From: Mesostigma viride
Taxonomy: Eukaryota; Streptophyta; Mesostigmatophyceae; Mesostigmatales; Mesostigmataceae
NCBI GenBank assembly: GCA_009746045.1
Contig: RPFO01000026.1
Location: forward strand, 549,849 to 613,848
DNA length: 64,000 nt
Direction: 5' to 3'
Below are positions 925 to 57,280 of this stretch, one piece after another (position 1 is the stretch's first letter; the number at the start of each line of letters is the position of its first letter). A program made the position numbers and the translations under genes. A model generated the notes under the pieces. It had not been told where the DNA came from. It did not search any database and was given only the letters and a program-made list of their open reading frames with translations.

Positions 925-987
925 TCGTGTCCCCTACACCACCCAATATCCAGCTCCACTGCCCAGGCAGGGACACAGGATGGGAGG

Positions 988-3900
988 ATGTTGACAGGAT
1001 GTCAAGTTAATTCTGTTACCTCTCACTCTCCACCTTCATGCTCAGCTGTCAAGGCTGTAAGCAAGGTTGGCAAAGTGCTGAAGTATTACACAGAAACCTC
1101 TGACAGTGAACCCAGGTTCACCTCCTTGATACCCAAGGTGTCCAGGGTCATGACCCAAGCTCTTAGTAACATCAGTTATGAGGAGCTGGCATTGCAACTG
1201 CACTTACTGTATGGTCATGAGACATGTGCAGAGGTGGTAGCAGCTGCATTGGGAGGTACGGCACTCAGGAAGGCATGTCAGCTGATCAGAAAACACTGTC
1301 AGCACTGCCAAATGTATGCACCTAAACCACCCAAGTGGCATGTAGCTACACCACCTAAGTGCAAGGGCAGAGTGGTCGGGGATGTGTTCCATATTAAGGG
1401 ACAGCCCTATCTGGCTTTAAAGGACGCATGGTCCAGGTACACAGCAATAGAACCTCTCCCTGGTATGGACAAGTCTCAGTTGCACAGAGCTATATTAATA
1501 GCACAAGCCAGGTACTACCCAGTAGAAGCACTGCTGTTAGATCAGCAATTTAGTTGCCTTGCTGGGGCAGAGGGCTGTGAAGCTATAGACCTGGCTGGGC
1601 TAGAAGATCATGAGAGACAAGGTATCATTGAGAGGGCAATTAGGTCTATCAAAACCTTGGTAGCCAAAGAAGGTGAGAACCTGTTAGCTGACAGTGGGTC
1701 ATACGCTGATAGGGCACTGTGGGCTACTAAGATATGCCAGATACTCAATAGACGACCACTCCTGCAGACACCCTATGGTATTATCACACCAGATGGGTTA
1801 CAGGCTGGGATATACCCACCTGAGGTACTAGCTGTGTACAATGCACAGCGTGCCCACGCTGCCAGCAGATTGGCAGCCAAGGATGCCAAGCATCCACGCC
1901 CCTCCTTCAAGGAAGGGGACACAGTTCTCTTCTATAAGGAGTCAGGGCTAGGGAAGGTTGGGACATGGTTAGGCCCAGCCACTATCCTTAAGTTTTCCAG
2001 CACAGGCAAGACTGTGCATGTGAAACACAATGACACTGGGCATGTGCACAAGTGCTCACCTCACAGGATTAAATTGTATTACACTCCACTGTCAGACGTG
2101 GCAGAGGAGGAAGAGCTGATGGTCGACAGCTCAGTACAGTTGCCTGGTATATCTGGAGTACCCAGTGAGTGGTTGTTTGGAACACACACTGGTGAGTGTG
2201 ATAGCCACAACACATGTGCACCCCAGGTCACCCTCAGTGAGCCTAGCCAGCCACAGCAGGTTAGACCACCTGTCAATGAGGGCACTAACCAAGAAGGTGG
2301 TCAGCAAGACAGCACACCTTCAGCGGTACCAGCTCAACCCATACCTACCGTGTCCAAACATGGGCTAGCAGAAGCGGTCCGCATACTGCAAGCAGCGCAT
2401 AGAGCCAAAGCTCACACTGCTGCAGGGTCAGCCAAAGTGAGTAGGGCAGGTCACAGCGACAACAATCCAGCTCTAGTCGCGGTTGACACCCAAGCTCAGG
2501 TTAGCATCATCAGTGCATTGGCTGTACCACACCTAGAGTTAGAGCCTTCCCCTTGGCAACGGGTGGCTGATTTCTCTGGGCAGGCTAGCTTGACTGTTAA
2601 AGGTCAGGTTACCTTAAACATTCTTGGTATCCCCACACCTTTTCAGGTACTGGAAGGATACACAGGAAATGCTTTGTTGGGTGATCCATTTATTTCTTAC
2701 CCAGGTGTCACCATCTCTTGTGATAGGCTTGAGGTACAGGGCCTGGGTGGGGTGTCACTTGATCATTTTCAGGTACCACTCCAGACTTTGGTTGACACAC
2801 AGCCAGCCACTGTCAAATTTGTTGCACCTAAGTATGCACCTGGGCACGAGCCACGTGTGGCAGATTTGGTGCACAGTCAGAAACTGCACCCCAAAGCATT
2901 TGGATTGGGAAAGTATGATGTTGCAAAAATGTCTCCCCTCTCCTATGAACAGATTGTCCAGGACTGTCAAACTCAGGAAGGTTTCACTAAGTGGGTTGAA
3001 GCTTTTAGAAAGGCTATGGATGAATGGGTGGTTCCAGATCCACGTAGTCCCACCCACACACCTCCAGTCACTCCCTTAGAGCGTAAGCCCAACGGGAGCA
3101 AGCACCTAAGACTTAAGTTCGTGTGCAAGCACAAGCAAGCAGCAGATGGCTCTGTCATTTTCCATGCTAGGCCTTGTGTGACTGAGTTTAAGGGATCCAC
3201 TGATTTGACAGAGGCAGATCTGTATACACCTGGCATTCAGCAAACTTCTCTTAAAATTTTGTTGTCTGTTTTTCTAGGGCACATCAATCAAGGTGATGAT
3301 TATGTGTGCAAAGCCACTGACATTAAACGTGCATTTCTGAAAGGCTCACCTGAAATAGCTGAGCAAGTTTGGCATGGGAAGGTGTATGTGGTCAACACAC
3401 CTCAGGTGTGGTCTAAGGATATCCCACAACCATTTCTGAAAGCCAACATAGGAGTGGAAGGTCTGCAATCTGCTCCTAGAATTTTCAGAATGTCAGCTCA
3501 AGCTGTGTTTGAGAAGCTAGGTGCTCGGTATGATGACATAGACCCTTGCTTCTTTGTTGTCCCTCACCCTCATGGCATGATCATGTTTGTGTGGCATGGG
3601 GATGATCAGCTTATTGCTGGGCCTAGGCAGGCTGTGGATGATTTTATTGCCAACGTGTCTAAGTCTTTTGAGATTGGCAAGCAGCTAGAGCTGGGCACCA
3701 TTGCTATTAAGTTCTGTGGCACAATGTTGCAGCTTCAGAAGCAAGCAGATCAGTGGGTCTGTGCAATGTACTCTCCATCAGATTACATGCACAGTTGTAA
3801 GGAGGTGCTGCAGACTAAAATCAAACCTTGTGACTGTCCCACCATTAGGGGCAAGCTGGGGTGGTTGTGTTCTACTTGTGCACCACACCTAGCAGTAGTC

Positions 3901-4532
3901 AGCAGGGTTGATGATGCAGTTCTTATGCAGGTAGGCCACAAGGCTATCAACAAGCTCCTGCAGGCTGGTCCACCCCTTATCTTGCATTCCCTGGAACTCT
4001 TTAAGCCCATTCACATTCAGGCTATAATGGACAGTTCCATGGAATCACGGCAGATTACTCAACTGCAGGCTAGGGAGGCTGGCTTATTTTTTGTACAAAA
4101 TGCTGACAACCCATGTCACTCATCTCATGGTATAGCAGGCTACATAGGCGTAAAGCTGTTAGTAGCAATGCTGCTGAGTGCAGGGCAGTTGTGTCAGCTG
4201 TGCTACATGCCAGGTATCTCAATCATGTCCTGGTTTGGTTACAGAAGCAAGCAGGCAGTCAGGCTGGGGTGGTGGCTCACTTGCACACCGACAGTCAATC
4301 TCTCCTCAGTTTCCTTGACAACCCTTATGCTGTGCATACTGATTTGGACTGGGTGATCCTGAAACAGGAGTGCACCTACTGGGAGTCTACCAATCATGTG
4401 CCGGACAAGGCCAACGCCGCGGATGCGTTGACCAAGGTGCCCCAGCTAGCACCTGAGCAGTACCAACTGCTCTATCACATGATGAACCCCTACGGCAAGC
4501 AGGCCAGCCTGCCCCCGCCGGTAGACACCTAG
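988..4532 (+). CDS. Pol polyprotein: integrase, retropepsin-like, copia RT, RNase H (one frameshift)
   Basis: The domains, in order, with residues counted from ATG 988. The integrase zinc site has H72, H76, C104 and C107. The integrase catalytic triad is D132, D185, E215, with only 29 residues between the last two, followed by a GPxxI-like C-terminal module. A retropepsin-like domain follows, with active-site triplet D500-T-Q instead of D-T-G and a second-half LLGDPF motif near 562. The copia-type RT (RVT_2) has DIKRAF near 778 and HGDD at 3595-3606 where copia has YVDD. The RNase H core starts in this frame (MDSSMESRQ) and resumes one frame later near 4113 (ISWYSRLHRR, HTDSQS, ADALTK), ending at 4532. 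The frame is open from 925, just after the gag stop. Canonical Ty1/copia order is PR-INT-RT-RH, so PR after INT is unusual. The frameshift implies a pseudogene or a sequence error. Confidence 0.85.
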
Positions 4533-5553
4533 TCCACCCCTCCCCAGGGAGGGTGGCTAGTCTCCCCACCCCTACTATGGGGCAACCCCTGTCAGGGGGT
4601 AGGGGTACCCAGACCCAGGCCCAGGCCACGGGGTGTCTTATCATCAGCACTAGCTCCTGGGGAGGAGCTGAACCTGTATGCCTTGTAAGCCCTGTTTTAT
4701 GGTGAATAAATGGAGTCTCTTTGACCTCGTCTCTCTCATGAATTTCGTTAGCTCGTCTCTTGGGAGGTGAGCTGTCAATCCTTCACAAGTGTGTCATTGT
4801 GTCAGTCATGGTGACAGTACTTGTACATGGCATTGTTATGTGGCTGGGTCATGTTCATGGTTACCTTGTACATGTGCATGTGCATGTGCATGTAACGTGT
4901 GACAGTCTTAGTCCTGTGACCGTGCCTGTTGTGTCTTATGCCGCCATCTGGTCCCAGGACCTGTGGTAGGGTGATGGGCAGTCCACCCATTCGCCATGTG
5001 CAAATCAAGTGGAGAACCAGTTCCCCCTTGTCAGTTGCCTGTGCTTACCACCATGTGGCACTCACAGGTATCTGGCTGCTCTGGCCCAGGTCAGCAGTGG
5101 CAAAACATCAGGTCCTAAGCACCTGGGGAAGACCTCTGGTTTCACTAGAGTCATCCCATTGGTTTTTGGGAAGTGGATGTTGCATGGGGTTCCATCCACA
5201 AGTGGCAATCAAGCCCCCCTTTTTCTACCATCTGCAGTGACAGATGCCAGGGAAATGACGACAATTCGCTCCTTCAAAGATGGAAACTGGGCACTCCTTA
5301 TATGCTGTGACATGTGACTTGCATGACGTCCTGTGTGACGAATGGCCGCAGTACCTCATTTATGTTTTCCCCACTATTGAGGGGGAGGAACCCCCGTAGT
5401 GCTTGGCAGGGTTAAATCAGCAGTCAGCATCAGTATAGTCCGTTTCTGGGGCCCTTCTCTAATCCAGTTGTGACTGTATGGGCTCTGGTTGCCTTGCAAC
5501 GGTTGGTAGGTCAGACTTGGAGCATGTTCCAATCTGAAAGAAAACATAATGGG
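4533..5553 (+). other. Retrotransposon 3' untranslated region with polypurine tract
   Basis: No convincing gene is present between the pol stop and the probable LTR. An AATAAA lies near 4704 and a TGCATG-rich stretch near 4875-4893. Bases 5536-5553 (GAAAGAAAACATAATGGG) lie directly before an AGTT terminus. The tract resembles the polypurine tract of the complete sister element, where the minus strand reads AAGAAAAGAAGGGATTGG before AGTT. It would prime plus-strand DNA synthesis. Confidence 0.5.
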
Positions 5554-6143
5554 AGTTAGCTGAGATACCTCGAGGCTGACTTGTGGCCGGAGCCACACAG
5601 GGGAACATACAGTGTGACCGGAGTTATTCTGGCGGAGACAGAATAACGGTGCCGAGCGCCGGTTGTGGCGCGACGCACACACGTGTACGCAAGTTACGTA
5701 GCTAGCAACTAGTCTAGTGGACGTTGTGCGTAGTAACGTTGCTCCAGGTCTAGAAGCCTCTAGAACCTGGACACGTGGCGGACAAGTGAGCGTAGTCCAG
5801 TTGTCCTAGGGATCTCGTGTGAGTGATGTGTCCACGACATATAATGTGTGCCCACATATGGAGTGAATAATGACAAGGAACGCCCGATCCCTGGCGTTGC
5901 TGCAGCCATCATTCTCACACTGAGTCCCCAACGTCTCCGACGTACATATATATATCTAACTATGCAGTGGGCCAGGTTTGGGATCGCCACCTTGCATGTA
6001 TGCCCTGGAACACACCCGATAGAGGTGGGCCACGGGGGCCATTCTGACATCCAAAATCACACATCCCAACCCCAAACCCTAACCTATTTTAAACCCTAAG
6101 CACAGCCCGGCCCTTATGCATGTACATGTCCACGGTACTAACT
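5554..6143 (+). repeat. Probable 3' LTR of the left-edge retrotransposon
   Basis: The segment starts AGTTAG after a polypurine tract and ends CTAACT, giving 6-bp inverted ends. These match the AGTT...AACT termini proven for the 617-bp LTRs at 9931 and 18582. A TATATATA stretch at about 5945 could be its promoter. The 590-bp length is close to that of the sister LTR. The partner LTR is outside the window, so the right boundary is an inference; other AACT positions (5710, 5960) are possible. Confidence 0.45.
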
Positions 6144-7072
6144 CGGCTGGAAGCTTGCGTTGCACATGAAAATAGCAGCAGGCTGGTAATAATCCTTACA
6201 TTTCAGCAGCAACCATTTGTCAGCATCTAGGATATGGCGGGCGTTGACGCTTCTCATCAGGTCCCCAATCATGCCGTGATCCCTCTCAAACGCATGGCCG
6301 TCCATATCCCAGAGCCTGCCCACGTCCTTGGTCTGGTGCGCCACATGGAGCCCCATATGACAGTTGGCTGTGGCAGCGTTGTGGCCTCGCTCGTTTGCAG
6401 TCTTCCCCCTCTGTGCAACCACGCCAGCATTGGCGTACTTTCCACGAGGCCATAGGGCATTGAAACGTTTCAGGAACTGGCGATACACCTTGTCGGCATT
6501 GTCAGCATGCGTCGGGGAAGTGTACTCGCTCAGTACCATCTCCGTCCACTGCGATGAAAGCAAACATGAGCAGCATTACATTGAAAGCACGTTTCCAGCC
6601 AGTCACGTTTACAATGCGATTATCATATATATTTTTGACTCATGGGGCTTGTAGATAAAAACCTAAAACAGCTCACACATCATGAAGTGACATGTCTATG
6701 CAAGTGCACATGATGTAGCATACGGGGAATGTTAGGTTGGCAAGGTCTTACCACGCAAAGGTCCCGCACCATTTGAGCAGTGCCTCGAACGCGCTGGGGA
6801 GGCCGTGCGTTAGGTTCTTTGGCAGACTCCCGCACTCGAAGAATCCATTCCATGGCATGTGGTACCATCGGCAGGCACTGCAGGAACTGCATGGCCTTGA
6901 AGAAAGGGTATCGGGTGAACGGGTTCTTGGGCAATGCGGCCCTTCCGCTGGTGGTGGGCCACGCTCTCGCATATGCATCACATTCCCGGATCTCATCGGA
7001 TTTCAGGAGCCGGGTGCAGATGAAAATGAACACGGTTTTGATGATCCCCAAGCACAGCAAGTGAAAGATCTC

Positions 7073-7606
7073 TGTCAGAATGTAAGACAGGTGGCAGGCT
7101 TAAAGATCGAATAATGCTTTACTGATTTTATATATTGACTTTGAGTCGGCGTACAAACGGGTAGCCATGACAATTGCAGGGGCAACATTAAGTGGAAAAA
7201 CACACTGTCGCAGTATCCGTCGATCTGGAAATAATCTACGGTATAAGTTAAAGTGCATCCAGCCGCCACACACAAGTGGGTGGCTTACACCAACACTAAA
7301 ATGATGCGTCAGATCACTAGTATGCAAGTACAAGGACATTGCGCCTCCAGGGCAGCACTTAGTGAACATAGGGTCGGCGCGTAGCGCGGAGCCAGGCAAA
7401 TTTTGTCAGACGGCTACAGTACCACTGGCTACAGTACCACTGGTTACAGTACCACTAGGGTACGGATGTCAGCTAGCTAATATATTTAGCTAACTAATAT
7501 ATTTAGTAGAATGTAGAAGAAAGTAGTCATATAAGTTCCGGTATACCCGAAACTAGCACACTCAATAAAAAAAAAACTGTCAGGCATATTGGGGCATATC
7601 CTGACA
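7073..7606 (-). repeat. 3' LTR of gag-only element (534 bp)
   Basis: Direct repeat of 9382-9915 with no difference seen by eye. It begins TGTCAG and ends CTGACA. It contains three tandem copies of a GGYTACAGTACCACT motif near 7410-7456 and an A-run near 7568-7576. Confidence 0.92.
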
Positions 7607-7614
7607 CCCCCCTT
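7607..7614 (-). promoter_or_regulatory. Polypurine tract of gag-only element
   Basis: The minus strand reads AAGGGGGG immediately before the TGTCAG start of the 3' LTR, the expected site for plus-strand priming. Confidence 0.65.
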
Positions 7615-8173
7615 GCATACAATGTGCCTGTTCCCCCCTTGCTCAGAGAAACCTATAGCTAGTGAGGGTATAGCCGGGTACACTCCCATGGCACCCCCCT
7701 TACACGGCTATCTGGTTGGAGCTGAGAGGAGACTTGATGACTGTAGCCCCCAGGTGTCCCTGGGAGTGCGCCACAGTGGCTGTCGCTTGGAGAATGCTGG
7801 TGACCCTAGAAAAAACTTGGTTGTGGCTGCTGTTGCTGGTAAAATGCTGGGACCCTGGAAAGACATCCGGTGGCCCCCAGGTGTCCCTGGGAGTGCGCCA
7901 CAGGAGAAAAGAACACAGGTTGACTGGTTGATGCTGGTACTGCAGTACTGGTCACTGCTGGCTGCTGGCATGAAGACCTGCACCTGGCACGTCTGGCAGG
8001 GTGGGCGACTAGCCGCTAGCAATGCAGGAGGGCCAGAGGACGGGTTGGGGGGGCTGGCTGCTGTCGCCTGCTGCAGTGCAGGTTGAAAAGCTCCAGGGCC
8101 CACGTCTGGTGCTAGCTGGGCCCAGCTGGCTGCTACCCCTTGTGCCCTGTCCCGGGGGAGCTGGATAAGGCGT

Positions 8174-9067
8174 TTAGAAGCAGAAACCGGGGGGGAGGTC
8201 GTGGGCCTCGTGGGAGGGCGCCGGTGGGGTGTCGGTGGTGTGGTGGGCGGCGGGCCCGCCGGTGTTGCCGCGAGTGTTCCGTAGGTGAGGATACTTCCAC
8301 CAGCAGGTGGGCTCCTGATGAGAGGTGCGACCGCAGTGGGTGCAGCTGGGCCGCTGGGTCCCGCCATTGTGACCGCCACGCCCCCTGCCACGGCCGGTGC
8401 CACGGCCACCGCGTCCAGAGTGGGAGGTATGATACACCCCGGTGGCCTCCGCGGAATCTTTGTTACCGTGCACAAGGTCCCAGGCCTTAAGAAGTGCCGC
8501 CTTAGTTTCCTGTAGGGTGATACCGTCCCCAAGGTTCAATTGGGCAAGGGACGGAAGCAACTCCTCGGTCACGCCGGCGAGCAGATTCTCGGCCAGATCC
8601 TCGGGTGCCATTTTGGCGCCGGTGGCAATCAGGTCGTTATAAGTTAATTCCCCGTCGGTTATATATTGCCGCATTGTAACGCCGGGTTCCAGCTTCATTC
8701 GATTTAGCTTGCGGCGTAGTGCTCGCCGGTTGCTCATCTGCAGCTTGAGATGCTCATATTCTTCACAGATGCGATGATATGCCACGCTGCCAGTTTTCTG
8801 AGTAACACTGTTTGCCACTTTGAGTGCCGGTCCAACGAGGCACTGACAAAGGGCCGCAAAAAGAATCAGGTCGCGTTCCTCATTGACCTCGGTGCCAAGC
8901 AGGACAGACAGCATCCCGAATGCTGTCACTACGGCCAGAAAAGGAATCTTGGTGTTATCCCACTTTACTGGGTCGAGGCCGTCGAACTGTGTAATATTTT
9001 TGCAGGCCTGTAGAATGTTGAGATCTTTTGTCGCTTTCGTAGCTGCTGCTGTCGCGGCTGCGGACAT
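8174..9067 (-). CDS. Copia-type Gag (UBN2-like) with CCHC zinc knuckle
   Basis: The 297-aa ORF starts at a real ATG (9067-9065). The N-terminal two thirds is helical and has the layout of copia gag/UBN2 domains: a repeated Leu/Met-rich segment, then a stretch around DLAENLLAGVTEELLPS like the DLV..IL.GLP motif. A Gly/Arg-rich linker follows, then one zinc knuckle (CTHCGRTSHQEPTC, C-X2-C-X4-H-X4-C) near residue 240. It would package the element's RNA into virus-like particles. It ends with a stop and no pol follows; 7615-8173 is non-coding and holds a 27-bp direct repeat (about 7747 and 7875). Intact reading frame and identical LTRs suggest the element may still be mobile if helped in trans. 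Confidence 0.85.
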   Translation of the reverse strand: MSAAATAAATKATKDLNILQACKNITQFDGLDPVKWDNTKIPFLAVVTAFGMLSVLLGTEVNEERDLILFAALCQCLVGPALKVANSVTQKTGSVAYHRICEEYEHLKLQMSNRRALRRKLNRMKLEPGVTMRQYITDGELTYNDLIATGAKMAPEDLAENLLAGVTEELLPSLAQLNLGDGITLQETKAALLKAWDLVHGNKDSAEATGVYHTSHSGRGGRGTGRGRGRGGHNGGTQRPSCTHCGRTSHQEPTCWWKYPHLRNTRGNTGGPAAHHTTDTPPAPSHEAHDLPPGFCF

Positions 9068-9365
9068 GATTGTCTCGGCAAGGTTAAAATCTGGTCACAA
9101 CCGAGTCTCGGCAAGGTGAAAATCTGGAGACAGCCGAGAAAGCCGGAGACGCTCAATCCGTAATGGTAAAGATTAAGACTAATATGCGACGATGGTTTAG
9201 AACAGCAAATACGAGGTAGAGACGATCGTCTAAATACTGGAGTTCTTGAATTTCGATACAGGGAAGCCCGTCTAGGATATGCACGACTGGCATAAAGTGC
9301 CGACGTCGGATTCAGGGAGTCAATTTGCCCGATAAATCGGACCAGTTTCAGCAATTTAGTAGGCC

Positions 9366-9381
9366 ACCCCGCTCGATACCA
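9366..9381 (-). promoter_or_regulatory. Primer-binding site of gag-only element
   Basis: The minus strand reads TGGTATCGAGCGGGGT directly after the LTR. It starts with the TGG complementary to tRNA CCA and resembles the initiator-Met PBS TGGTATCAGAGC common in copia elements, one base shorter. Confidence 0.7.
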
Positions 9382-9915
9382 TGTCAGAATGTAAGACAGG
9401 TGGCAGGCTTAAAGATCGAATAATGCTTTACTGATTTTATATATTGACTTTGAGTCGGCGTACAAACGGGTAGCCATGACAATTGCAGGGGCAACATTAA
9501 GTGGAAAAACACACTGTCGCAGTATCCGTCGATCTGGAAATAATCTACGGTATAAGTTAAAGTGCATCCAGCCGCCACACACAAGTGGGTGGCTTACACC
9601 AACACTAAAATGATGCGTCAGATCACTAGTATGCAAGTACAAGGACATTGCGCCTCCAGGGCAGCACTTAGTGAACATAGGGTCGGCGCGTAGCGCGGAG
9701 CCAGGCAAATTTTGTCAGACGGCTACAGTACCACTGGCTACAGTACCACTGGTTACAGTACCACTAGGGTACGGATGTCAGCTAGCTAATATATTTAGCT
9801 AACTAATATATTTAGTAGAATGTAGAAGAAAGTAGTCATATAAGTTCCGGTATACCCGAAACTAGCACACTCAATAAAAAAAAAACTGTCAGGCATATTG
9901 GGGCATATCCTGACA
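9382..9915 (-). repeat. 5' LTR of gag-only element (534 bp)
   Basis: Partner of 7073-7606, identical by eye. On the minus strand it is upstream of the primer-binding site and gag, so it would carry the promoter. It is followed on the plus side by TSD ATCTC at 9916-9920. Confidence 0.92.
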
Positions 9916-9930
9916 ATCTCAATGGGAAAC

Positions 9931-10547
9931 AGTTGTGAGGGTAAGAATGCCACGAATTCCGCCATGGTTCTTGCAGGAAGTTGCCTTTATTAACAATCAG
10001 GAAACACAGACGTAAGTCACGTCACTTCCAAGACTGCACGCAGCACAGGCGACAGGGTCGCAGTGCCAAGAGAACGTGCACGCAAGAACTGGCGTCCCGG
10101 TGTGACCAAGTCACTCATATAGCTTACTAGGGACGCGTCCAAGTATTCAGCTGCACTGTCACAGCTGAACTGTCAATCAATTGATTACACAGACTCTGGC
10201 ACGCCTTTGGCGCGCAGATCTATCAATTGTCCATACGGCTAGTCCTGTGGACCTATCCGTACACTAGTCAGCATCAATTGTCTCATAGGTCCTGGCGCGC
10301 TACAGCACGCCTACCTATCAATTGACCATCAAGTCCTGTACAAGTCCTGTCAACGTCCTGCGGACTATCAAAGTGACACTTGTACATCCTGTGTCCGTAC
10401 GCGCCCACAGTGGCGCGCCGGGTACTGTCGGCACAGCCTAGGAAACGTCATAACTTTTACGTTCCTTAACCAAATGAGGCGTTCAAGGTGCCGTTGGAAA
10501 GAGCGTAACAATCTCTATCCATCTAACGTAAATCCTTTACGTTAACT
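9931..10547 (-). repeat. 3' LTR of copia-like element (617 bp)
   Basis: Direct repeat of 18582-19198. It begins AGTTGTGAGG and ends CGTTAACT. The inner side on the minus strand carries the polypurine tract. Confidence 0.93.
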
Positions 10548-11497
10548 CCAATCCCTTCTTTTCTTTAGGGATCACATCCCCTGCCAGGGACCCTTGAAGT
10601 AGCTTGAAATGTCCTTCACTCCAGCTTGAAGCTTGAACAGATGTCTTTAATGGCCAATGCCATTCCCCCAGCCCTTTCTTTTAAGGAACTGGAAAAGAAA
10701 CAGATCTGCCACAGGGAAAACCATTCCATGAGAAATGGATAAAAACCTATGGAAGTGGCATTACAGAGTACCACCAGATATTAGAAGCACACAAAATTAA
10801 ATACATACAGGTTAATTCTATGAGGTCTTCTCCAGGAATTAATCCCATCACCTCGGTAGAGCCTCCAGTACAATGACCTTCTGGCGGTGAGTTACATTAA
10901 TCCCAGATACTAATCCCATAAAACCCAGTACATATTCAATATAAGTACAATAAATCCATGACAATTAAAATACCACTTGACAAAGTAAGGCGTATTACAA
11001 TAGTTTGCCTGTCATTCTCTCAACAGGGGTCTATTGGCGCCCGTCTTACGGCGCCCGTCTACTTGCCAGATGGTAAACTGCCACAGCAAACAAATGACAA
11101 AATGAAACACATAGGCAACAATTAAATCCTGCCCTGGGGAACTAGGGAAGTCTGAACAGGCAAACACCTGAACAGGCCAGCTTGTAGAAACATAATACCA
11201 GGGAATCGAACCCCGCCCTATAAACCCCAGAATAAAGGTTCCCAGACCATTGTGAGAAGTATGTACAAATATACATTTCTTTTAAAATAGAATACATGGT
11301 CTGTAATGGACCTGTCAACCTTGTGTAGTCAACAGCATGAACCCCAGCCAAAACCTGGCTGTATCCTGATTAAAATCAGAGTGAGTGTACCATGGTCCAT
11401 GAGCCTTAGTACAGACTAAAATACAGGTATTATGCCAGTCACAATGCTGACACTACCACACAATCTGCTCTCCAATGCCCTATAACCATGCACCAGC
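10548..11497 (-). other. 3' untranslated region and polypurine tract of copia-like element
   Basis: There is no convincing ORF in this 950-bp stretch between the RNase H stop and the LTR. Next to the LTR the minus strand reads AAGAAAAGAAGGGATTGG (10565-10548), a polypurine tract. Confidence 0.7.
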
Positions 11498-12241
11498 TTA
11501 GACAGCTTGCTGAGATGGGTCCATCAGAGACTGAAGAACCTTGTATTGCACTGCTGCCTTCTGCACTAGCTTGGTCAAAGCATCAGCAGGATTGTCAACC
11601 CCAGGGATATGCTCAATATTGGCCAAGGAGGACAACTCCTTAAGAAGGAGATAATCCAAGTCCCTACTTCTGGCCATCTGCCTGTGCACAAACTGCACCA
11701 TCCCCATGGAGTCTGTTTTTAGAAGAGTGGTAACCTGAAGTGGCCAAGGAGTGTTAGAAGTCATCTGATGAAGCAACTCCTTCAGATAAAGGCTTGTGTG
11801 AATGCCTTCACAAATAGCCCTGCATTCTGCCACATCACTGCTGACAGCCACCCGTTTGTGCAGGCGACTAAACCAGCTCACCAAACTCCCCAGGCCTTCC
11901 TGTCTGAGCACAAAGAGCCCTGCAGCCCTGCCCCTGACCTTGGAGACCTGCCTGCTGTCCATTGAGCTATCCACATACAGCTCCATGCAAATGGGTTGTG
12001 ATAAATCCACTGCAGACAACAGAATGCCAGATGAAGCCCTGACCTGATCAGCCACCTTGGCAGACCCTAGCTCCACCAGCATGTCATCAGGCAACCTGGC
12101 TATGACCATAAGGTCTGGCCTGGAAATGCCTGCCACCCAAGCAACCATGCCCCTCACCATGGGACACAGTGCCTGTGTGATGGTTGGAGGAAGCTTGCTA
12201 ATGAGGGTCTCTTGATAGTCATTGCCCCCCACCAGCAGCAT
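11498..12241 (-). CDS. RNase H domain of Pol (frame-shifted continuation)
   Basis: This ORF carries the C-terminal end of RT and copia RNase H. The YVDSSMDSRQ strand with the first acid, the VSWFSRLHKRVAVSSDVAECRA segment, the TDSMGMVQF segment and the PGVDNPADALTK ending match the RNase H of the left-edge element. It degrades RNA in the RNA:DNA hybrid. It overlaps the upstream pol ORF in another frame. Shortening the C6 run at 12225-12230 by one base would join the two, so this is one Pol broken by a homopolymer change (mutation or read error). It has no start of its own. Confidence 0.85.
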   Translation of the reverse strand: MLLVGGNDYQETLISKLPPTITQALCPMVRGMVAWVAGISRPDLMVIARLPDDMLVELGSAKVADQVRASSGILLSAVDLSQPICMELYVDSSMDSRQVSKVRGRAAGLFVLRQEGLGSLVSWFSRLHKRVAVSSDVAECRAICEGIHTSLYLKELLHQMTSNTPWPLQVTTLLKTDSMGMVQFVHRQMARSRDLDYLLLKELSSLANIEHIPGVDNPADALTKLVQKAAVQYKVLQSLMDPSQQAV

Positions 12242-15053
12242 ACGCCACTCCCCCCTTCTTCACCAGTGTGGCCTCCATGCCCACAAACAGCAGAGGCTCA
12301 TTCTCCACCTGCCATTGCTCCCTACCCAGAGGAAACTTGGACTTAATGATGGAGATCAGCTCCTTAAGCCACGACGTGGGAGCTATCAGATGTAGGTCAT
12401 CCCCGTGCAGCGAAGCATACACTGGCAGGCCTTCCCATTGCCCCAGAAACAGACAGGGGTCTACAGGAGAGACCTTCAAGTTGCAATGCTCCTTCAGGAA
12501 ACGGTTGAGAGTCTCCCTCCAGATTATTGGACTTGACCTCAGGCCCTCCAGGCCCTTGAGGATTTTAAGGAACTCCGTGTGGATGTCCCTTTTCCATACA
12601 GCAGGCACCCTAACATAGAAAGGCGTCTTGCCCTCCCACTTTTCCTGTGCCACATCTGCATCACCCTCCAGAAATGCCCTCTTGAAGTCTACCACCACTG
12701 AGCCATAGTCCAAGCCCTTGTTGAGAAGGCCTAGAAAGACACACAGCAGCAGCCTCCAAGTATCATGCAGCATGCCAGGGGTATACAACTCCTCAGCAGT
12801 GCACTCACCAGTACCCTTGAACTCATTCAGCACTGGCCTGACATGTGGTACCTTGACCCCGTCCACCTCCTTCATCTTGATGACAAACTTGAGCTTGAGT
12901 AGACGTCGTGCAGGAGGCAGGTCATTGACAGGTTCCACGCATTTCTTGGAGATCCAGTCCTCCCCAGATTTAATCAGACCCAGTGTGACCTGGGGACACA
13001 TAATGGGAGAGGACATGAGCTTCACCAGGCCTTGGTAGTTGATAGGGCTGTGTCCAGCAAGTGAGTGAGGACCAATGCCCAAACTGCTTGGATGACTAGC
13101 AGCTGGCAGTATGAGGTCATCAACCAAGGGCTCCTGCCCCTGGCACACTTGCACACGCTTAACCGACCTGGTTACTGCACGTGATAGGTGAGTGGTCCTG
13201 AAATTAATCAGTGGGACCTGACCAGCCCCTTCCTTAGTCAGGAGAGAGGACGTGATCACTACCCCATCCTGGCATAGGAAATTCTGCCCCAGAAGAGCAG
13301 GTCCTTGATAGCCCTCCAAGACACAAAAAGCAGTGTCCTGTCCAAGGATAGGAATGAATACCTCACCCAGTACCTTCACGTGTACCCCGCCACTGAAGTC
13401 AGACACAAACTGATAGCTGGGTTCAGACATGCTGTACCCTGCTGCAGCCCTGGTCCCAATGATGGAAACCTGAGAATTAGTGTCTACCTCTAAGGCAGTG
13501 TCCAGCCCCAGATTGCCATGCCACCTGAGCTTGGCTACCTTGGGCTGCTTCTTGGCCCTTTGTAGAGCCCCAATCAATCCAGCCAAACTTGTCCCCCTGG
13601 GCTTGGTTAGTGCCTTGGGCTTGACAGTTGACTCCCCAGCTGTTGACCTTGCAGCCTGTTCAACAAGTACCTCTGCAACCTGGCCAGGGCTGACAGATTC
13701 CCCTGCAACAGATGTGGTCGTTGCGTCAGTGATGTCACCTGGGACCTGAAAATCCTGCAGATCCTGTGAGCCTTGTGCCTGACTGCCCTCATTCATCAGG
13801 TTAGGCTTGACATATGACCAACTCAGCCGGTGCACATGCTTTGGTTCGTCCTCCATGCTGACCAAGCATGCGTGGCTAGCTTCATCAACCTGGGTAACCA
13901 CCCCAGGACTCCAGCTACCACGTTTGCCATAAAGGCTAGGTTCCTTCCAAGCTAGGACCTTCTGACCCACTTGTGGCTCCAGCATCTTCCAACCCCGGTC
14001 CTTCTCCCTCAGCTTGGCAAAGGTGACATGTGCAGCATGTTTCCAGCCCTCCAGCACATGTGGTGGGCACAGGCCATGATATAGACCCATTGGGCTGACA
14101 GCAACTCCATCATAGTAGAAGTTAACCCTGCTGTTCAGCTGCTGCTCCACGTTCCTCAGCCATGCACTCCTGACAAGTGCAGGTGCAGACAAGGGTACCC
14201 AGTCTTCAGAGATGATCAATTTCTTGACCTCCTGGATTGCCCTCTCGATAGCACCCTGCTGCCCATGAGCCTCCCTAGGTGTAACCAGCAACTCAGGAAG
14301 GGTAGGATCACCCTTGAGATGCTGAAACTGCATGTCCACCTGGATCCTTGTGGTAGGAAACTTGGCTCTTACATTCTGCAGGGCAGCCAGCAAGTACCTG
14401 TTCTTCATAGAAGGTAAATGCTCCAGCACCTTGTATTTCGTGTACCTGTCCACGCACACCAACAGTTGCATGCCCCTGATGTGTTGGATATCACACTGCA
14501 GATCACCAATGCTCTGAGGTAGAGCTTTGGCATGTGATTTCCTGGGCTTGTTGGAGGACAACTGGCACTTACACCGTGAGGCAGCTTGCTGACACGCCTT
14601 AAGAAGGGGTGCCCTGCCCATACGGAAGGCAAAGTTGTTTGACAGAGAAGTGGCATGCCCAAACATGTTGTGGATTCGGGCACCCAACTCCTGGTACACA
14701 GAGGAAGCAGTCCCTGGCACAGTCAGGACTGTGCTGTCAGGTTGTCCAGCATCACCATGCTGACTTCCATCCTGTTCTGACTCAGAGCCTGAGTCACCCT
14801 GCTCATGCCCAACACCTGGACCGCCAGCAGGGACCACATGCATACCACCAGAGGCCTTCACACCCCTCTGTGGTTGTACATTGGTTTCTCTCAATATGAG
14901 AGGTCCACCCTCGTGCCCAGCACGAGGATGCATGGGGTCAGACATTCTTACAGCTGCACCAGCTGTCAAGGACGTCTTCATAGGAACCTGTACCTCTCCA
15001 GGTGACCTGGGGCCATCAGTTAGGTTAATATTGTGCGGAAACCTTTTTGCCAC
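12219..15053 (-). CDS. Pol polyprotein: integrase, retropepsin-like, copia RT
   Basis: In order on the minus strand: integrase zinc site (His pair near 14650-14680, CxC pair near 14570), then the catalytic acids in QCDIQHI (about 14500), IQVDMQF (about 14335) and GAIERAI (about 14245), again with 29 residues between the second D and E. A retropepsin-like domain follows with VDTNSQVSII (D codon 13484-13482) and ALLGQNF (about 13290). The copia RT has DFKRAFLEG (about 12680) and HGDD (12407-12396). The first dozen residues of the open frame (15053-15018) come from the inserted palindromic element. Without that insertion the frame runs back through 16456-16560 to the gag TGA, in the same phase. 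No PR motif lies between gag and INT. About 30-40% similarity (estimated by eye) to the left-edge Pol shows the order is conserved. Confidence 0.88.
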   Translation of the reverse strand: MAKRFPHNINLTDGPRSPGEVQVPMKTSLTAGAAVRMSDPMHPRAGHEGGPLILRETNVQPQRGVKASGGMHVVPAGGPGVGHEQGDSGSESEQDGSQHGDAGQPDSTVLTVPGTASSVYQELGARIHNMFGHATSLSNNFAFRMGRAPLLKACQQAASRCKCQLSSNKPRKSHAKALPQSIGDLQCDIQHIRGMQLLVCVDRYTKYKVLEHLPSMKNRYLLAALQNVRAKFPTTRIQVDMQFQHLKGDPTLPELLVTPREAHGQQGAIERAIQEVKKLIISEDWVPLSAPALVRSAWLRNVEQQLNSRVNFYYDGVAVSPMGLYHGLCPPHVLEGWKHAAHVTFAKLREKDRGWKMLEPQVGQKVLAWKEPSLYGKRGSWSPGVVTQVDEASHACLVSMEDEPKHVHRLSWSYVKPNLMNEGSQAQGSQDLQDFQVPGDITDATTTSVAGESVSPGQVAEVLVEQAARSTAGESTVKPKALTKPRGTSLAGLIGALQRAKKQPKVAKLRWHGNLGLDTALEVDTNSQVSIIGTRAAAGYSMSEPSYQFVSDFSGGVHVKVLGEVFIPILGQDTAFCVLEGYQGPALLGQNFLCQDGVVITSSLLTKEGAGQVPLINFRTTHLSRAVTRSVKRVQVCQGQEPLVDDLILPAASHPSSLGIGPHSLAGHSPINYQGLVKLMSSPIMCPQVTLGLIKSGEDWISKKCVEPVNDLPPARRLLKLKFVIKMKEVDGVKVPHVRPVLNEFKGTGECTAEELYTPGMLHDTWRLLLCVFLGLLNKGLDYGSVVVDFKRAFLEGDADVAQEKWEGKTPFYVRVPAVWKRDIHTEFLKILKGLEGLRSSPIIWRETLNRFLKEHCNLKVSPVDPCLFLGQWEGLPVYASLHGDDLHLIAPTSWLKELISIIKSKFPLGREQWQVENEPLLFVGMEATLVKKGGVAYAAGGGQ

Positions 15054-16450
15054 TTGGGCTTCTCAGGTTCCGCACAATATTACCGGCGATAACCACTCGC
15101 CGGACACTCAAGTTCACACCGGTGTGAACTTGAGTGTCCGGCGAGTGGTTATCGCCGGTAATATTGTGCGGAACCTGAGAAGCCCAAGTGGCAAAAAGGT
15201 TTCCGCACAATATTAACCTAACTAAAACCTAGCCTCTTGGGGCGAGGACGAATCACTAGGCTCGGAACACCCGTATGCATGAATATGATCGAATATAAGC
15301 ATCTCGTTGGTGCAAATATCGATATGAATATGATCGAATATGAGCATCTCCTTGGTGCGCATATAATTAGAGCCGGGTGCCAAATCGGAACGAATTATTC
15401 CCCCAAATAATCCGCTTCCGAGTGGATTCGAACCTGCGCCCCGCAAGGAACCAGGTCTTAGCCGGTGTGAACTTGAGTGTCCGGCGAGTGGTTATCGCCG
15501 GTAATATTGTGCGGAACCTGAGAAGCCCAAGTGGCAAAAAGGTTTCCGCACAATATTAACCTAACTAAGACCTGGTTCCTTGCGGGGCGCAGGTTCGAAT
15601 CCACTCGGAAGCGGATTATTTGGGGGAATAATTCGTTCCGATTTGGCACCCGGCTCTAATTATATGCGCACCAAGGAGATGCTCATATTCGATCATATTC
15701 ATATCGATATTTGCACCAACGAGATGCTTATATTCGATCATATTCATGCATACGGGTGTTCCGAGCCTAGTGATTCGTCCTCGCCCCAAGAGGCTAGGTT
15801 TTAGTTAGGTTAATATTGTGCGGAAACCTTTTTGCCACTTGGGCTTCTCAGGTTCCGCACAATATTACCGGCGATAACCACTCGCCGGACACTCAAGTTC
15901 ACACCGGTGTGAACTTGAGTGTCCGGCGAGTGGTTATCGCCGGTAATATTGTGCGGAACCTGAGAAGCCCAAGTGGCAAAAAGGTTTCCGCACAATATTA
16001 ACCTAACTAAGACCTGGATCCTTGCGGGGCGCAGGTTCGAATCCACTCGGAAGCGGATTATTTGGGGGAATAATTCGTTCCGATTTGGCACCCGGCTCTA
16101 ATTATATGCGCACCAAGGAGATGCTCATATTCGATCATATTCATATCGATATTTGCACCAACGAGATGCTTATATTCGATCATATTCATGCATACGGGTG
16201 TTCCGAGCCTAGTGATTCGTCCTCGCCCCAAGAGGCTAGGTTTTAGTTAGGTTAATATTGTGCGGAAACCTTTTTGCCACTTGGGCTTCTCAGGTTCCGC
16301 ACAATATTACCGGCGATAACCACTCGCCGGACACTCAAGTTCACACCGGTGTGAACTTGAGTGTCCGGCGAGTGGTTATCGCCGGTAATATTGTGCGGAA
16401 CCTGAGAAGCCCAAGTGGCAAAAAGGTTTCCGCACAATATTAACCTAACT
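15018..16450. mobile_element. Composite palindromic element with AGTTAGG...CCTAACT ends
   Basis: A 1,433-bp insertion is flanked by CCATC duplications (15013-15017 and 16451-16455). Its parts are P1 (15018-15223), X inverted (15224-15459), a deleted P (15460-15566), X (15567-15802), P2 (15803-16008), X (16009-16244) and P3 (16245-16450). P is 206 bp and reads as a perfect palindrome centred on CACCGGTG. X is 236 bp and non-coding, with AGGTTCGAATCC (a good tRNA/Pol III B-box match) and imperfect inverted ends. Ends and 5-bp TSD match those of the host LTR element. A TRIM-like P-X-P array moved by that element's integrase is one reading; a foldback transposon is another. Confidence 0.8.
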
Positions 16451-16560
16451 CCATCCTGAACCTGGAGATCACCCTCTTGTTGCCCAGATATAAAATCTGC
16501 ATTGGAGCACCTGGCCTCCCCCCTGGGTGAATTAAGGTGTGTAGGGGTTGCCTCAGACAG

Positions 16561-17676
16561 TCACTGCTCCTTGTTGTCTTCTTGCTGACTGCCCTTTGAA
16601 GGCTGGCCTGCCTGGGACTTGTTGTTGTTCTTCTTGTTGTTGTTGTTGTTATTCTTGCTGCCCTGGCCCTGGGATTTCTTGAAGCTGGGACACTCCTTCT
16701 TGATGTGCCCCCACCCCTTGCACAGGTAGCATTGTATCTTGGACTTGCCCTGGCCACTGCCCCCGTTGTCAGACGCGTTGCCCTGCTTGGGCTGACCACC
16801 CACCCGCCTGAACACCGACTTGGAGTGTGACCTCCTGTCAGAATCAGGTGAATGATCTCCCTTGCGCTTGTTATGGTTGCCCTTACGCCCTCCTTGGCTT
16901 CGGTCAGCCTCAGACGTCTTGGAGCCACCCTGGGTACGCCCACCTGCCTGGGTAGCCTTCACTGCTGGCACTCCACCCTCAAACAGCTCCTCTGCCTCGA
17001 GTGCTTGTTTAATGATGACCTTGTAGGCCTTCAGGGTAGAGTGTGGGGCACACATGACCTTTAACGAGCCACGTGTCGCCTTATCCAGCCCAGAAACCTT
17101 GAGCCAGTTGGTTAGGGCTATGTTATCAGCGACATTAAAGCCGTGAGCCCTGCCCTCCTCAACCATCTTACAATAGCTGAGAAAGTTCTGGATCAGGTCC
17201 CCCTTAACCTCCCACCCCTGGTATTTATCCTGCCAATGGATCCCCACTTTCTTCCTCTGATCCTCTAGCAGTTCCTTTAATTCTGCCACGTAGCTGGACC
17301 AGGCCTTGTTGGCCTTCTTACATTCCCTGGTTAGGTCCTTGATCTGATCAGTGCACTTGCCAAACGTGCTGCTGCCTATCCAGATCTGATAGTAGTTTGT
17401 ACCCCCGTACAAACTAGGGAACCCTTCCAGCCCTTCTACAAACTCTTCAGCCTGCTTAGGCTTAGAGTCAGATGTCACAGGCTGCAGCTGGTTGACAATT
17501 AATAATCCCTGAGTGGTAAGGTCAAAACCATGAACAGCTTGTGCATTATTATTATTGTGAGGAAGGTTGGTAATCTCTCCGGTAAGCCCCACGTCATCTA
17601 CGTGAGCGGTTCCACTACCAGCACCCCCATTATTATTCCCACTGGCTGGACCCTTGCTACGGCGTCCCTCAGCCAT
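16561..17676 (-). CDS. Gag with CCHC zinc knuckle
   Basis: The 371-aa ORF starts at ATG 17676. An Asn/Gly-rich N-terminus is followed by a helical capsid-like region (roughly residues 70-235), a basic Gly/Arg/Lys/Ser-rich linker and one zinc knuckle (CYLCKGWGHIKKEC, C-X2-C-X4-H-X4-C) near residue 320. The tail is very rich in Asn, Lys, Gln and Ser. It ends at TGA 16563-16561. After removal of the palindromic insertion (1,438 nt with one TSD copy) the downstream pol is in the same frame, so a single UGA separates Gag and Pol. Stop readthrough is a plausible way to make Gag-Pol; the context is UGA-CUG. Confidence 0.85.
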   Translation of the reverse strand: MAEGRRSKGPASGNNNGGAGSGTAHVDDVGLTGEITNLPHNNNNAQAVHGFDLTTQGLLIVNQLQPVTSDSKPKQAEEFVEGLEGFPSLYGGTNYYQIWIGSSTFGKCTDQIKDLTRECKKANKAWSSYVAELKELLEDQRKKVGIHWQDKYQGWEVKGDLIQNFLSYCKMVEEGRAHGFNVADNIALTNWLKVSGLDKATRGSLKVMCAPHSTLKAYKVIIKQALEAEELFEGGVPAVKATQAGGRTQGGSKTSEADRSQGGRKGNHNKRKGDHSPDSDRRSHSKSVFRRVGGQPKQGNASDNGGSGQGKSKIQCYLCKGWGHIKKECPSFKKSQGQGSKNNNNNNKKNNNKSQAGQPSKGSQQEDNKEQ

Positions 17677-17846
17677 CCTGCACTACCAGCTATTCAAAGA
17701 ACACCTTAACAAAGCAGCAGAAAGTATGTACAAAATTTTTGTGTCGCCACTGCCGCCTGCGCCGGTGTCGCCGCCGCCCCCGCGAATTGCCGCCGAAATT
17801 CGACAAAAAAAATGTCGACAAGTACTGCAGAAGAAAATTAGGCCGA

Positions 17847-18557
17847 CTAGTAGTCAAGGCCCCTGAAGTCGCAGTACGTGTATACGAACTCACGATCCTC
17901 CATATCCAGCTCCGGACCTGCACCGGTATGAATTAAAACCGGCGTGCTCCCCGCCGCGTAAGTGCCGACGCGCCGACGCGCGACGAGGCGCAGAGGATGT
18001 GTAAAGATCGTCAATAATTCCCACCCCGCGGGAATCCACTCTCGCACAGAGGCGAGAAATGCCACCAGATTAATTAAAACCTGGCGCTCACGACTGCGTA
18101 CGCCGCGAGTCAGCAGCGATAGCAGCGCGAGATCCTGAAACAAATTTGTTGACACCGCCGGCGCGCCCCCCGTGCGAAGCGATGCCCAGTTTTGCAGGTT
18201 TCTCTGGTAACCGGTGAGTGAAGAGATGATGTTATCCAACTCTTCAATGGCAGTCGTGACTTCGGTCACGGACCGCAAACCTCCCCGCACCTGGACCGTA
18301 AATGTCGATAAAATGTTGCGGATTTGGTCCAATAATGCGCGAACAGCCGGCACCAGTGCTGGCAAATCGGGGTCCTCGGGGTTATCCCCGAGCAATGCGT
18401 GAGCTGCACGCTGCTGACGATGAAGCTCGTCGAGCGAAACTGTAACTTCGTCGAGCAATTGTTGCCACGACGGCACAGTTGGTCTTGACGAAGAACCAGC
18501 CGGCGGAGCGGCTATTTCCTCATCGTCCGGAATCCGAAATTCTTCAGAATTTGGCAT
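17847..18557 (-). CDS. ORF0, unknown protein upstream of gag
   Basis: The 236-aa ORF begins at ATG 18557, 24 nt after the 5' LTR on the minus strand. An upstream in-frame start at 18647 would lie in the LTR and is less likely. The protein has an acidic, Pro/Ser-rich N-terminus (about 25 residues), then mainly amphipathic Leu/Arg-rich helices and a moderately hydrophobic segment near residues 150-195. I recognise no domain. It could be an extra capsid-related protein or an accessory factor. No homologue is visible in the left-edge element, whose 5' end is missing. An intact frame in a young element argues that it is used. Confidence 0.6.
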   Translation of the reverse strand: MPNSEEFRIPDDEEIAAPPAGSSSRPTVPSWQQLLDEVTVSLDELHRQQRAAHALLGDNPEDPDLPALVPAVRALLDQIRNILSTFTVQVRGGLRSVTEVTTAIEELDNIISSLTGYQRNLQNWASLRTGGAPAVSTNLFQDLALLSLLTRGVRSRERQVLINLVAFLASVREWIPAGWELLTIFTHPLRLVARRRVGTYAAGSTPVLIHTGAGPELDMEDREFVYTYCDFRGLDY

Positions 18558-18581
18558 CTTTTTGACAGAGCGTGTAATACG

Positions 18582-19198
18582 AGTTGTGAGGGTAAGAATG
18601 CCACGAATTCCGCCATGGTTCTTGCAGGAAGTTGCCTTTATTAACAATCAGGAAACACAGACGTAAGTCACGTCACTTCCAAGACTGCACGCAGCACAGG
18701 CGACAGGGTCGCAGTGCCAAGAGAACGTGCACGCAAGAACTGGCGTCCCGGTGTGACCAAGTCACTCATATAGCTTACTAGGGACGCGTCCAAGTATTCA
18801 GCTGCACTGTCACAGCTGAACTGTCAATCAATTGATTACACAGACTCTGGCACGCCTTTGGCGCGCAGATCTATCAATTGTCCATACGGCTAGTCCTGTG
18901 GACCTATCCGTACACTAGTCAGCATCAATTGTCTCATAGGTCCTGGCGCGCTACAGCACGCCTACCTATCAATTGACCATCAAGTCCTGTACAAGTCCTG
19001 TCAACGTCCTGCGGACTATCAAAGTGACACTTGTACATCCTGTGTCCGTACGCGCCCACAGTGGCGCGCCGGGTACTGTCGGCACAGCCTAGGAAACGTC
19101 ATAACTTTTACGTTCCTTAACCAAATGAGGCGTTCAAGGTGCCGTTGGAAAGAGCGTAACAATCTCTATCCATCTAACGTAAATCCTTTACGTTAACT
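18582..19198 (-). repeat. 5' LTR of copia-like element (617 bp)
   Basis: Identical by eye to 9931-10547. On the minus strand it precedes ORF0 with only a 24-nt leader. That leader reads CGTATTACACGCTCTGTC and does not start with TGG, so the primer is not an ordinary tRNA 3' end. Confidence 0.93.
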
Positions 19199-19203
19199 GA
19201 AAC

Positions 19204-19640: not shown

Positions 19641-19648
19641 TAACTTAC

Positions 19649-21387
19649 TTCTCACGAGCCGTCAGTCCCTCACGCTCCATGGTTGCGCACACAGCTCGGT
19701 GGCCCTCCTCCGTACGCAGCTCAAGCACCACTTCGGTGTGCCCCCAGAACTCGGAGTGGAGAGTACAAAAGCCGCAGCCATGATTGCTGCCAGACGCCAT
19801 GAGCCCCATCTCTGCAAACCGCGCCCCGGAATCTAGCAGCCAAAAAAAGGGTACTCTGACCTCCATCCACGACACAACACCGGTCAGAGGGTCTGCCATT
19901 TCCATGGCCACCCCTTGCTGCAGTGGGCGGATCTCGTTATCCAGCAGCCACTTGTTGAAGGCATCCGCATCCACATGCTTTGGCCTCAGCGTGACCACGT
20001 GATTGCGGGCAGCCGATCGATCCAGCGTTAGGATCCTGAACTGATACGACACCACATCGGCATCCGTATTGTCAGTGATCTTGAAGCTATCCATCCAAAG
20101 CACGATTGGGATCACAACGACGGGCAAGCCCAGCCGCGGGCGGGCCTGACACTTGCGGAGGGGGCCCTTCTGCCAGTCCCTGAAATCACCTATGGGCTGC
20201 ATCAAAGGGTGGCCATGGGGATCCCTTAGATCATTCCCATCAGCATCTGTTTCCACGATGCCCCCGGTCGTGACTCCGTATGTCCGTGACAAGAAGTAGT
20301 CGTGTTTCCCAACTGTGCCCTCTTGCTCCATTTCCGCGAAGTCTTCTTCAGAGTGAACCCTGATATGGCGCTTGTAGGTCCCTGCCTCCACCAATTCCGT
20401 CCAGTTGCATGCAAATAGCTCCTTCTCATGAAACCCGGGGCTTCCCCTTTTCAGGTGCGTGTGTCGCCACTTGTTGGCATACAAGTACTGCACCTCGAAG
20501 AGCACCTTGACAGAATCCGAGAGCTTGTCGTCACGCTGGTACAGGACGCCGGTCAGCCTCACCGGGGCCCCATAAGGCTTGCCTTTGTTCACACCGTCCT
20601 CAGTCACCGAGACCTCGAGGAAGTCACCGACCGTGAACGTCTGGCCGGATAGCGCTATCCCACGAAGGCGGCACAGAGGATGGTCGTGGAAGAAGGTACT
20701 CATGTGGAAACCTGTGCGCCGGCCATCCGCAAGCACCTCGGGCCGCACATGCAGGTGGCGCGTGACATTGTGCTGGCGTAGCAGATGTTGAAGCCGGGTC
20801 TTGATGCTGCACGTGTGGGCGACAGAGCCGTTAGGGAGTTCAATTCGCGTGACATGGTGCGTTGGGAGCTCCTTTTCCACCTTCCTGACCACAGGGAGCG
20901 TGAGCCGGTCGGCATCTTCCGATCGGTACTTGGGGTCTTGTCTCATGGCAGTTCTGCACAGCACGCCTTCGTCAGTCCGAGAATCGATTCGCTTATGGTA
21001 TGCAAACTCCAGAAACTCCGAGTGCGACCGAAAGATCCCGTACCCAGTCTCATTTCCCTGGCCGTCTGTTGGGGCCGAAGGCACTGAGCATGGATCAGGA
21101 GCTGCCACCGTCATGCGCCCGTCTATTTTCCCCCCTGGACAATGGCTAAGTCTCCGTTGCACGGCGGGCTCCTCAACGGAGTCAGCACTATTCCCGCCGT
21201 CGCCTCCATCCCCTGATTCAGTTGCATCCACTTCATCTGACCCAGCGTCGCGCGACAGAGCCCTCCCAGCGTCAACATCATCACCAAGTGCAGCGTTATC
21301 CACCAACTCGTCCTCAACGTCCTCATCGCAGTTGTTGATGCCAATGACGGTGTGAGCCACGGCGATGTCTTGACGCTTTTTTTCTTG
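19649..21387 (-). CDS. Transposase-like protein, first identified exon (core domain)
   Basis: About 575 codons encode an acidic Asp/Glu/Ser-rich N-terminal stretch and a long folded region. Near the end of the exon a segment with VVVIPIVLWMDSF, a downstream PLQQGV segment, a run of hydrophobic strands and a CGFC pair resembles the catalytic region of CACTA/CMC-like (Transposase_21-type) transposases as I know them from fungi and plants. Exon 3 ends in a region with repeated His, a W and an FER triad, like the DUF4218-type tail of the same group. I infer a DDE-type DNA transposase or a gene domesticated from one, but cannot assign the catalytic acids with certainty. The last codon is split by the intron (AA|G). 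A chromatin-associated protein of the same origin is an alternative. Confidence 0.55.
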
Positions 21388-21439
21388 CTGAAGAGATACC
21401 GGTGCGGCATTTGTAATCGCTTCCTTCGACGGGAATAAT

Positions 21440-57260: not shown

Positions 57261-57280
57261 GTACGTACCCCGCGGTGCGT

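Follow-up and report, generated by a model that had tools for sequence, protein, structure and literature searches.

The window analysed here, a stretch of 64,000 nucleotides of contig RPFO01000026.1 from the Mesostigma viride assembly GCA_009746045.1, contains two retrotransposon copies, elements 1 and 2, which are 31% identical and colinear. Both have the order gag, integrase (INT), a retropepsin-like domain (PR), RVT_2 reverse transcriptase (RT) and RNase H. Element 1 lies on the plus strand. Its gag is partial (positions 3–776, an open frame that continues upstream of the window), corresponds to the gag of the genomic copies L002 and L008, and lacks a stretch that L008 has. At the gag end, a C-x2-C-x4-H-x5-C motif (817–861) without a Pfam match resembles a zinc knuckle; L008 has two such knuckles. 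The pol open reading frame (925–4356; 1143 residues) encodes INT at 1174–2082, with the motifs H-x4-H...C-x2-C and D-(52)-D-(29)-E, and with GxWxGP in its C-terminal part. The PR-like domain follows at 2431–2787, with D-T-Q-A-Q-V-S-I-I at 2485–2511 and LLGDPF downstream, and RT occupies 2887–3735 (Pfam RVT_2, E = 4.9e-10, 39.8 bits against a cut-off of 31.6). The RNase H region spans 3736–4532; its last part (4107–4532) is read in a second frame, different from that of the rest of pol, and the two frames overlap over 4107–4356.

Element 2, on the minus strand, is a complete LTR element with gag and pol between two identical LTRs of 617 bp (3′ LTR, 9931–10547; 5′ LTR, 18582–19198), flanked by the 5-bp target duplication GAAAC (9926–9930 and 19199–19203). 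A purine-rich tract is seen by eye just inside the 3′ LTR. The gag reading frame (16561–17682) ends in TGA and includes a CCHC knuckle (zf-CCHC, E = 0.0052, under the cut-off). The pol reading frame (15062–12219; 947 residues) encodes INT at 13797–14699 (D-(29)-E; rve, E = 0.011, under the cut-off), the PR-like domain at 13191–13547 (D-T-N-S-Q-V-S-I-I, starting at 13484) and RT at 12264–13094 (RVT_2, E = 4.4e-6, 26.9 bits, under the cut-off of 31.6). As in element 1, RNase H lies in another frame (11498–12259), which overlaps pol over 12219–12259. In neither element does RNase H have a Pfam match, and we take these regions to be RNase H by their motifs. The extent proposed from the sequence alone for element 2 (15053–11498) fell short, as this element reaches to its LTRs.

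Two further features lie within element 2. A foldback insertion at 15018–16458, in the interval between gag and INT, is foreign to the lineage and is missing at the same site in the copies L010, L018 and L054; it is built from a 442-nt unit in nested inverted and direct copies of up to 100% identity. Between the 5′ LTR and gag, an extra reading frame of 266 residues (17847–18647, minus strand) overlaps the LTR edge and has no convincing Pfam match.

Less interrupted copies elsewhere in the genome show how these parts fit together. RNase H is in one frame with pol in L005, L006 and L008, and likewise in L054, a relative of element 2. In L008 a single frame of 1658 residues runs from gag through RNase H, with gag, the two zinc knuckles and a linker of about 100 residues followed by the INT motif at residue 551, PR at 977 and RT at 1254. 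L054 has a gag of 373 residues, a TGA and a pol of 1208 residues in the same phase.

The source genome (439.9 Mb in 2243 contigs, the contig of the window being labelled C887) was searched for the pattern D-T-x-x-Q-V-S-I-[I/M]. The pattern occurs at 1485 places, a count from which copies without D-T escape because the pattern demanded it, and the reversed pattern occurs at none, so the PR motif is not a product of chance. The D-T-N form makes up 651 of these places; among the places listed, D-T-Q-A, D-T-N-S and one D-T-E-A were seen by eye, in several synonymous spellings. Protein and family searches score only the best candidates, and the numbers of matches are therefore lower bounds: at least 43 for the element 1 protein P0001 (many at 100% identity, others at 98, 94, 91 and 77–78%), at least 48 for the element 2 protein P0002 (98–100%) and at least 79, down to 65%, for the INT–PR stretch of L059, which represents a third family. 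With further representatives fetched from the motif spellings, four families were set by the likeness of PR and INT: F1 (element 1, L008, L051–L053, L060 and L062), F2 (L058, L061 and L064), F3 (L059 and L063) and F4 (element 2, L009–L020 and L054, where L009 is the window's own copy). Most of the four have many near-identical copies. In INT, L053 is 83% identical to element 1, L061 49%, L059 36% and element 2 30%.

The domain order was surveyed by tblastn of the window INT, PR and RT against 12 loci (L008, L051–L054 and L058–L064). The order INT-PR-RT was found in ten (L008, L051–L054, L058 and L060–L063); in L059 INT is followed by PR and RT is unmatched, and the 601 bases of L064 hold PR alone. 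Counting L059, INT thus lies ahead of PR in 11 of the 12 loci, as it does in the two window elements. A single frame holds all three domains in L008, L051, L053 and L054, and in L058, L061 and L063 they are spread over neighbouring frames. The sequence-only reading had described this order in the two window copies, where the domain coordinates bear it out, and had taken its conservation in both, divergent as they are, to exclude a one-off rearrangement. That conclusion is strengthened by the survey, since INT-PR-RT is common to four diverged families.

A second protease, upstream of INT, was sought in the copies that were read in three ways. Pfam searches of L008, L053 and L054 give no protease family between gag and INT, and a canonical copia PR of this genome used as a tblastn query has no match in the 12 loci. 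A scan of the same three copies for D-[T/S]-[G/A]-[A/S/T] finds only D-S-G-S, once inside the INT of F1 and once in the gag/INT linker of F4, in the low-complexity string GDSGSESEQDGS; neither has a protease-like context. The earlier statement that no D-T/S-G lies between gag and INT therefore needs amending to the letter, the F4 linker having such a string, and holds as far as a protease is concerned. As a positive control, the canonical copias L056 and L057 of the same genome gave Pol_BBD, gag_pre-integrs, rve, SH3_retrovirus and RVT_2 with Pfam, in that order. Pol_BBD is common in this genome (at least 150 matches, with 150 scored of 490 candidates), so canonical copias and INT-PR-RT elements live side by side.

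We interpret these copies as a large, recently active lineage of LTR retrotransposons with an RVT_2 RT and the order gag-INT-PR-RT-RH, whose polyprotein would be cut by the embedded retropepsin, and we give this reading a probability of about 0.74. It depends on what PR is and on what it does. Over the eight PR sequences of alignment A4, the invariant positions are D, T, Q, V, S, I, I and ALLG...F, and a D-F pair stands at a flap-like place. The D-T-G of the catalytic loop is called wholly conserved in peptidase family A2 in the accessible part of one account (PMC11957791), and D-T/S-G and ILG form the clan AA template in that of another (PMC2642776). The domain had earlier been recognized as retropepsin-like, which stands; its catalytic motif is D-T-Q/N rather than D-T/S-G, a point that had passed without comment.

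Selection on PR was compared with that on the other domains by dN/dS, for which all figures are rough because dS is near saturation. Between L008 and L053 the values are 0.056 for INT, 0.079 for PR (95% bootstrap interval 0.05–0.167), 0.079 for RT and 0.085 for RNase H, against 0.56 for the linker between INT and PR; between L008 and L051 they are 0.103 for PR and 0.40 for this linker. PR is thus under purifying selection comparable to that on INT and RT (dN/dS of about 0.08–0.10). In the more distant comparison of L008 (F1) with L054 (F4), PR has a value of 0.29 and most other domains are beyond estimation. PR is also the most alike domain between these two copies, with 43% identity compared with 31–34% for INT, RT and RNase H. 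As its dN/dS contrasts plainly with that of the linker, and as it is the domain most alike between F1 and F4, PR is very likely to be in use, to judge from these sequence comparisons.

Being in use need not mean cutting, since selection alone cannot separate catalysis from structure, and PR could be a catalytically dead retropepsin fold that is kept for the dimerization or packing of Pol, with processing left to a host protease or dispensed with. The catalytic loop speaks for this: all 11 distinct PR segments that were read carry Q, N or E where Gly is expected, and nowhere in the genome does the motif take the D-T-G form. Yet the D and T are the same in all eight rows of the alignment, in which many other positions differ, and a purely structural domain would have no need of them; nor did the copies yield any other protease by Pfam, motif scan or tblastn. 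A dead fold is therefore disfavoured, and we consider it unlikely. On the sequence evidence, the unvarying D and T argue for catalysis and the missing Gly against it, and on balance an active retropepsin seems the somewhat better supported description of PR.

A retropepsin fold is itself quite likely, although single sequences give weak matches or none. With Pfam, gag-asp_proteas was matched by five of the eight PR members (best E = 0.0034), Peptidase_A2_2 by three (best E = 0.002) and Asp_protease_2 by two (E = 0.048). Every one of these matches lies under the curated cut-off. The PR of element 2 alone has no Pfam match, PR has no match in NCBIfam, and single-sequence searches of the PDB with P0001 and with the PR of L061 have none. 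The family TAP35_44 was also matched by two of the eight members (E = 0.015); it is unrelated and was taken as a chance match.

A two-sequence PR profile searched against the PDB gives 29 matches (best E = 0.0067), of which 28 bear the name of a retroviral protease. The eight-sequence profile has eight matches, each of them weak (E = 0.17–1.2) and each a retropepsin, namely DDI1, DDI2, a tethered retroviral protease or ASPRV1; for DDI1 and DDI2 the alignment places D on D and the LLG region on the ILG region. The match to the tethered HIV-type protease is weaker with eight rows than with two (E = 0.36 compared with 0.0067). The reversed eight-sequence profile has a single match, to a nanobody, and none to a retropepsin. 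No meaningful match was found between the PR profile and a canonical copia PR of this genome. Structure prediction from two-row alignments with two choices of domain border gave mean pLDDT values of 37.3 and 35.6, too low to be informative, so the assignment of fold and activity rests on sequence.

These pLDDT values and the poor single-sequence matches would also suit a domain that is a β-rich C-terminal extension of INT, or an RT connection domain, with a chance likeness to retropepsins. Such a chance likeness would have to account for profile matches that fall on retropepsins in 8 of 8 and 28 of 29 cases, with none for the reversed control, and would leave the copies that were read with no protease candidate at all; we regard it as improbable. 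A further alternative is that ordinary copia elements were rearranged or wrongly assembled; the foldback and the RNase H frame changes of the window copies might be cited for it, as such loci are prone to misassembly. It is ruled out by the genome survey, which finds the order in four families, on many contigs, in frames of up to 1658 residues and in many copies of 98–100% identity, with INT and PR that fail copia models and profiles.

The affinities of INT and RT bear on where the proposed INT-PR-RT-RH lineage belongs. INT (alignment A5, five members) has H-x4-H...C-x2-C, the second half of which is C-x-C in element 2, and all five members share D-(29)-E. The first D lies 52 to 54 residues ahead of the second in four members; in element 2 the distance is 55 residues by script and 51 by alignment. 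The rve family was matched by three of the five members (best E = 5.2e-6), and the INT of element 1 was unmatched. Against the PDB, the INT profile finds a Pol protein (E = 0.0013), which we take for a retroviral integrase, and an integrase (E = 0.57). Pfam finds no copia SH3 module in INT, and the GxWxGP C-terminus, compared by eye, resembles the GPY/F module of gypsy elements and retroviruses. The profile is colinear with copia INT over 194 columns at 22% identity, which is not significant. RVT_2 is the only RT family that Pfam finds in RT (alignment A6). F1 and F2 members share 33–38% RT identity with element 2, compared with 23–30% with two canonical copias of this genome. Beyond this genome, pattern matches were seen in viral and prokaryote contigs, none of which was confirmed as a relative by tblastn.

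Ty1/copia elements have the order PR-INT-RT-RH and Ty3/gypsy elements the order GAG-PROT-RT-RH-INT. The present elements resemble Ty1/copia in their RVT_2 RT, in having INT ahead of RT, and in their LTRs, 5-bp target duplication and CCHC gag. They differ in that PR follows INT instead of preceding it, in the low RT identity to the canonical copias of the same genome, and in that L008, L053 and L054 have no match to Pol_BBD, gag_pre-integrs or SH3_retrovirus, all of which are present in L056 and L057. With Ty3/gypsy they share a PR that is nearest to gag-asp_proteas and its relatives and an INT whose profile finds the Pol protein; unlike Ty3/gypsy, they have RVT_2 as their only RT and have INT first in Pol, upstream of RT. 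In the gypsy element Gmr1 the protease still stands in front. The accessible part of its description gives Gmr1 a copia-like integrase order, an indication that INT can move (PMC2774666). PR resembles the clan AA peptidases (retroviral PR, DDI1/2 and ASPRV1) in its hydrophobic-D-T, in the flap-like D-F-[S/A] and in A-L-L-G as the counterpart of ILG, whereas the Gly of D-T-G is replaced and the overall similarity is weak. GalEa, CoDi and other protist and marine copia clades, from diatoms, red algae and marine animals, likewise have a copia-type RT; they were compared by description only, and the parts of their descriptions that were accessible do not state an INT-before-PR order (PMC2774666, PMC3587641).

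As INT and PR are unlike their copia versions, their sequences may point to a mixed origin, in which a different INT and PR module was joined to a copia RT-RH, or to a very deep branch near copia. A bolder version, which we put forward as a tentative possibility, is that the lineage represents a third basic Pol order, a superfamily-level chimera of retroviral or gypsy-like INT and PR with copia-like RT-RH, whose retropepsin would be active with D-T-Q or D-T-N. On present sequence comparisons, the lineage, with its copia-type RT, its INT-PR-RT-RH order and a PR that is probably an active retropepsin, is most likely undescribed. This had been raised as a possibility from the two window copies and gains support here; neither the order nor the lineage was found in the accessible text of the open-access literature searched, so 'undescribed' is provisional.

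The expression of these elements can be sketched along the following lines. Transcription would start from the LTR. In F1, a Gag-Pol polyprotein would be made from the single frame. In F4, it would be made by readthrough of the in-frame UGA at the gag end (CAG UGA CUG). CAG TGA CTG is found at the gag end in all 13 F4 copies that reach it (L009 stops short), and in the four uninterrupted copies L010, L011, L018 and L054 pol continues past the TGA in the phase of gag. Many F4 copies have a frame of 967 residues, and others continue to about 1207. PR, with its catalytic loop D-T-[Q/N/E]-[A/S], would then dimerize and cut the polyprotein, freeing gag and INT on its upstream side and RT-RH on its downstream side. 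The rapidly evolving stretch of about 100 residues between INT and PR might serve as a hinge or as a cleavage zone.

Assignment of LTR retrotransposons to superfamilies makes use of the order of their Pol domains. In the accessible part of a large survey, mostly of green plants, elements of unexpected order are said to have always been removed as likely incorrect predictions (PMC6317226); a lineage whose motif turns up at 1485 places of a single genome shows that filtering of this kind may conceal genuine diversity. The lineage also offers a natural experiment, both on what the position of the protease within Pol means for processing and on the ability of a retropepsin to act without the Gly of D-T-G.

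Several other features of the window and of the loci compared were noted. An LTR element at 7073–9915 has identical LTRs of 534 bp, the target duplication ATCTC and a single Retrotran_gag_2 reading frame (8174–9094, minus strand), with no pol seen; this gag-only element is likely to be mobilized by another element. Among the canonical copias of this genome, the protease motif is D-S-A-A rather than D-S/T-G-A in L055 (2720–3076) and L056 (2508–2864), and D-T-G-A in L057. Weak Pfam matches were recorded to NLPC_P60, DUF4537, TAP35_44, DCX and BAH, the last of these in a reading frame of 597 residues at 19645–21438 on the minus strand (E = 0.0014, under the cut-off). Very long simple-repeat and minisatellite arrays lie at 57280–58534, 50896–51433 and 25375–26978, with units of 4, 6 and 23 bases.
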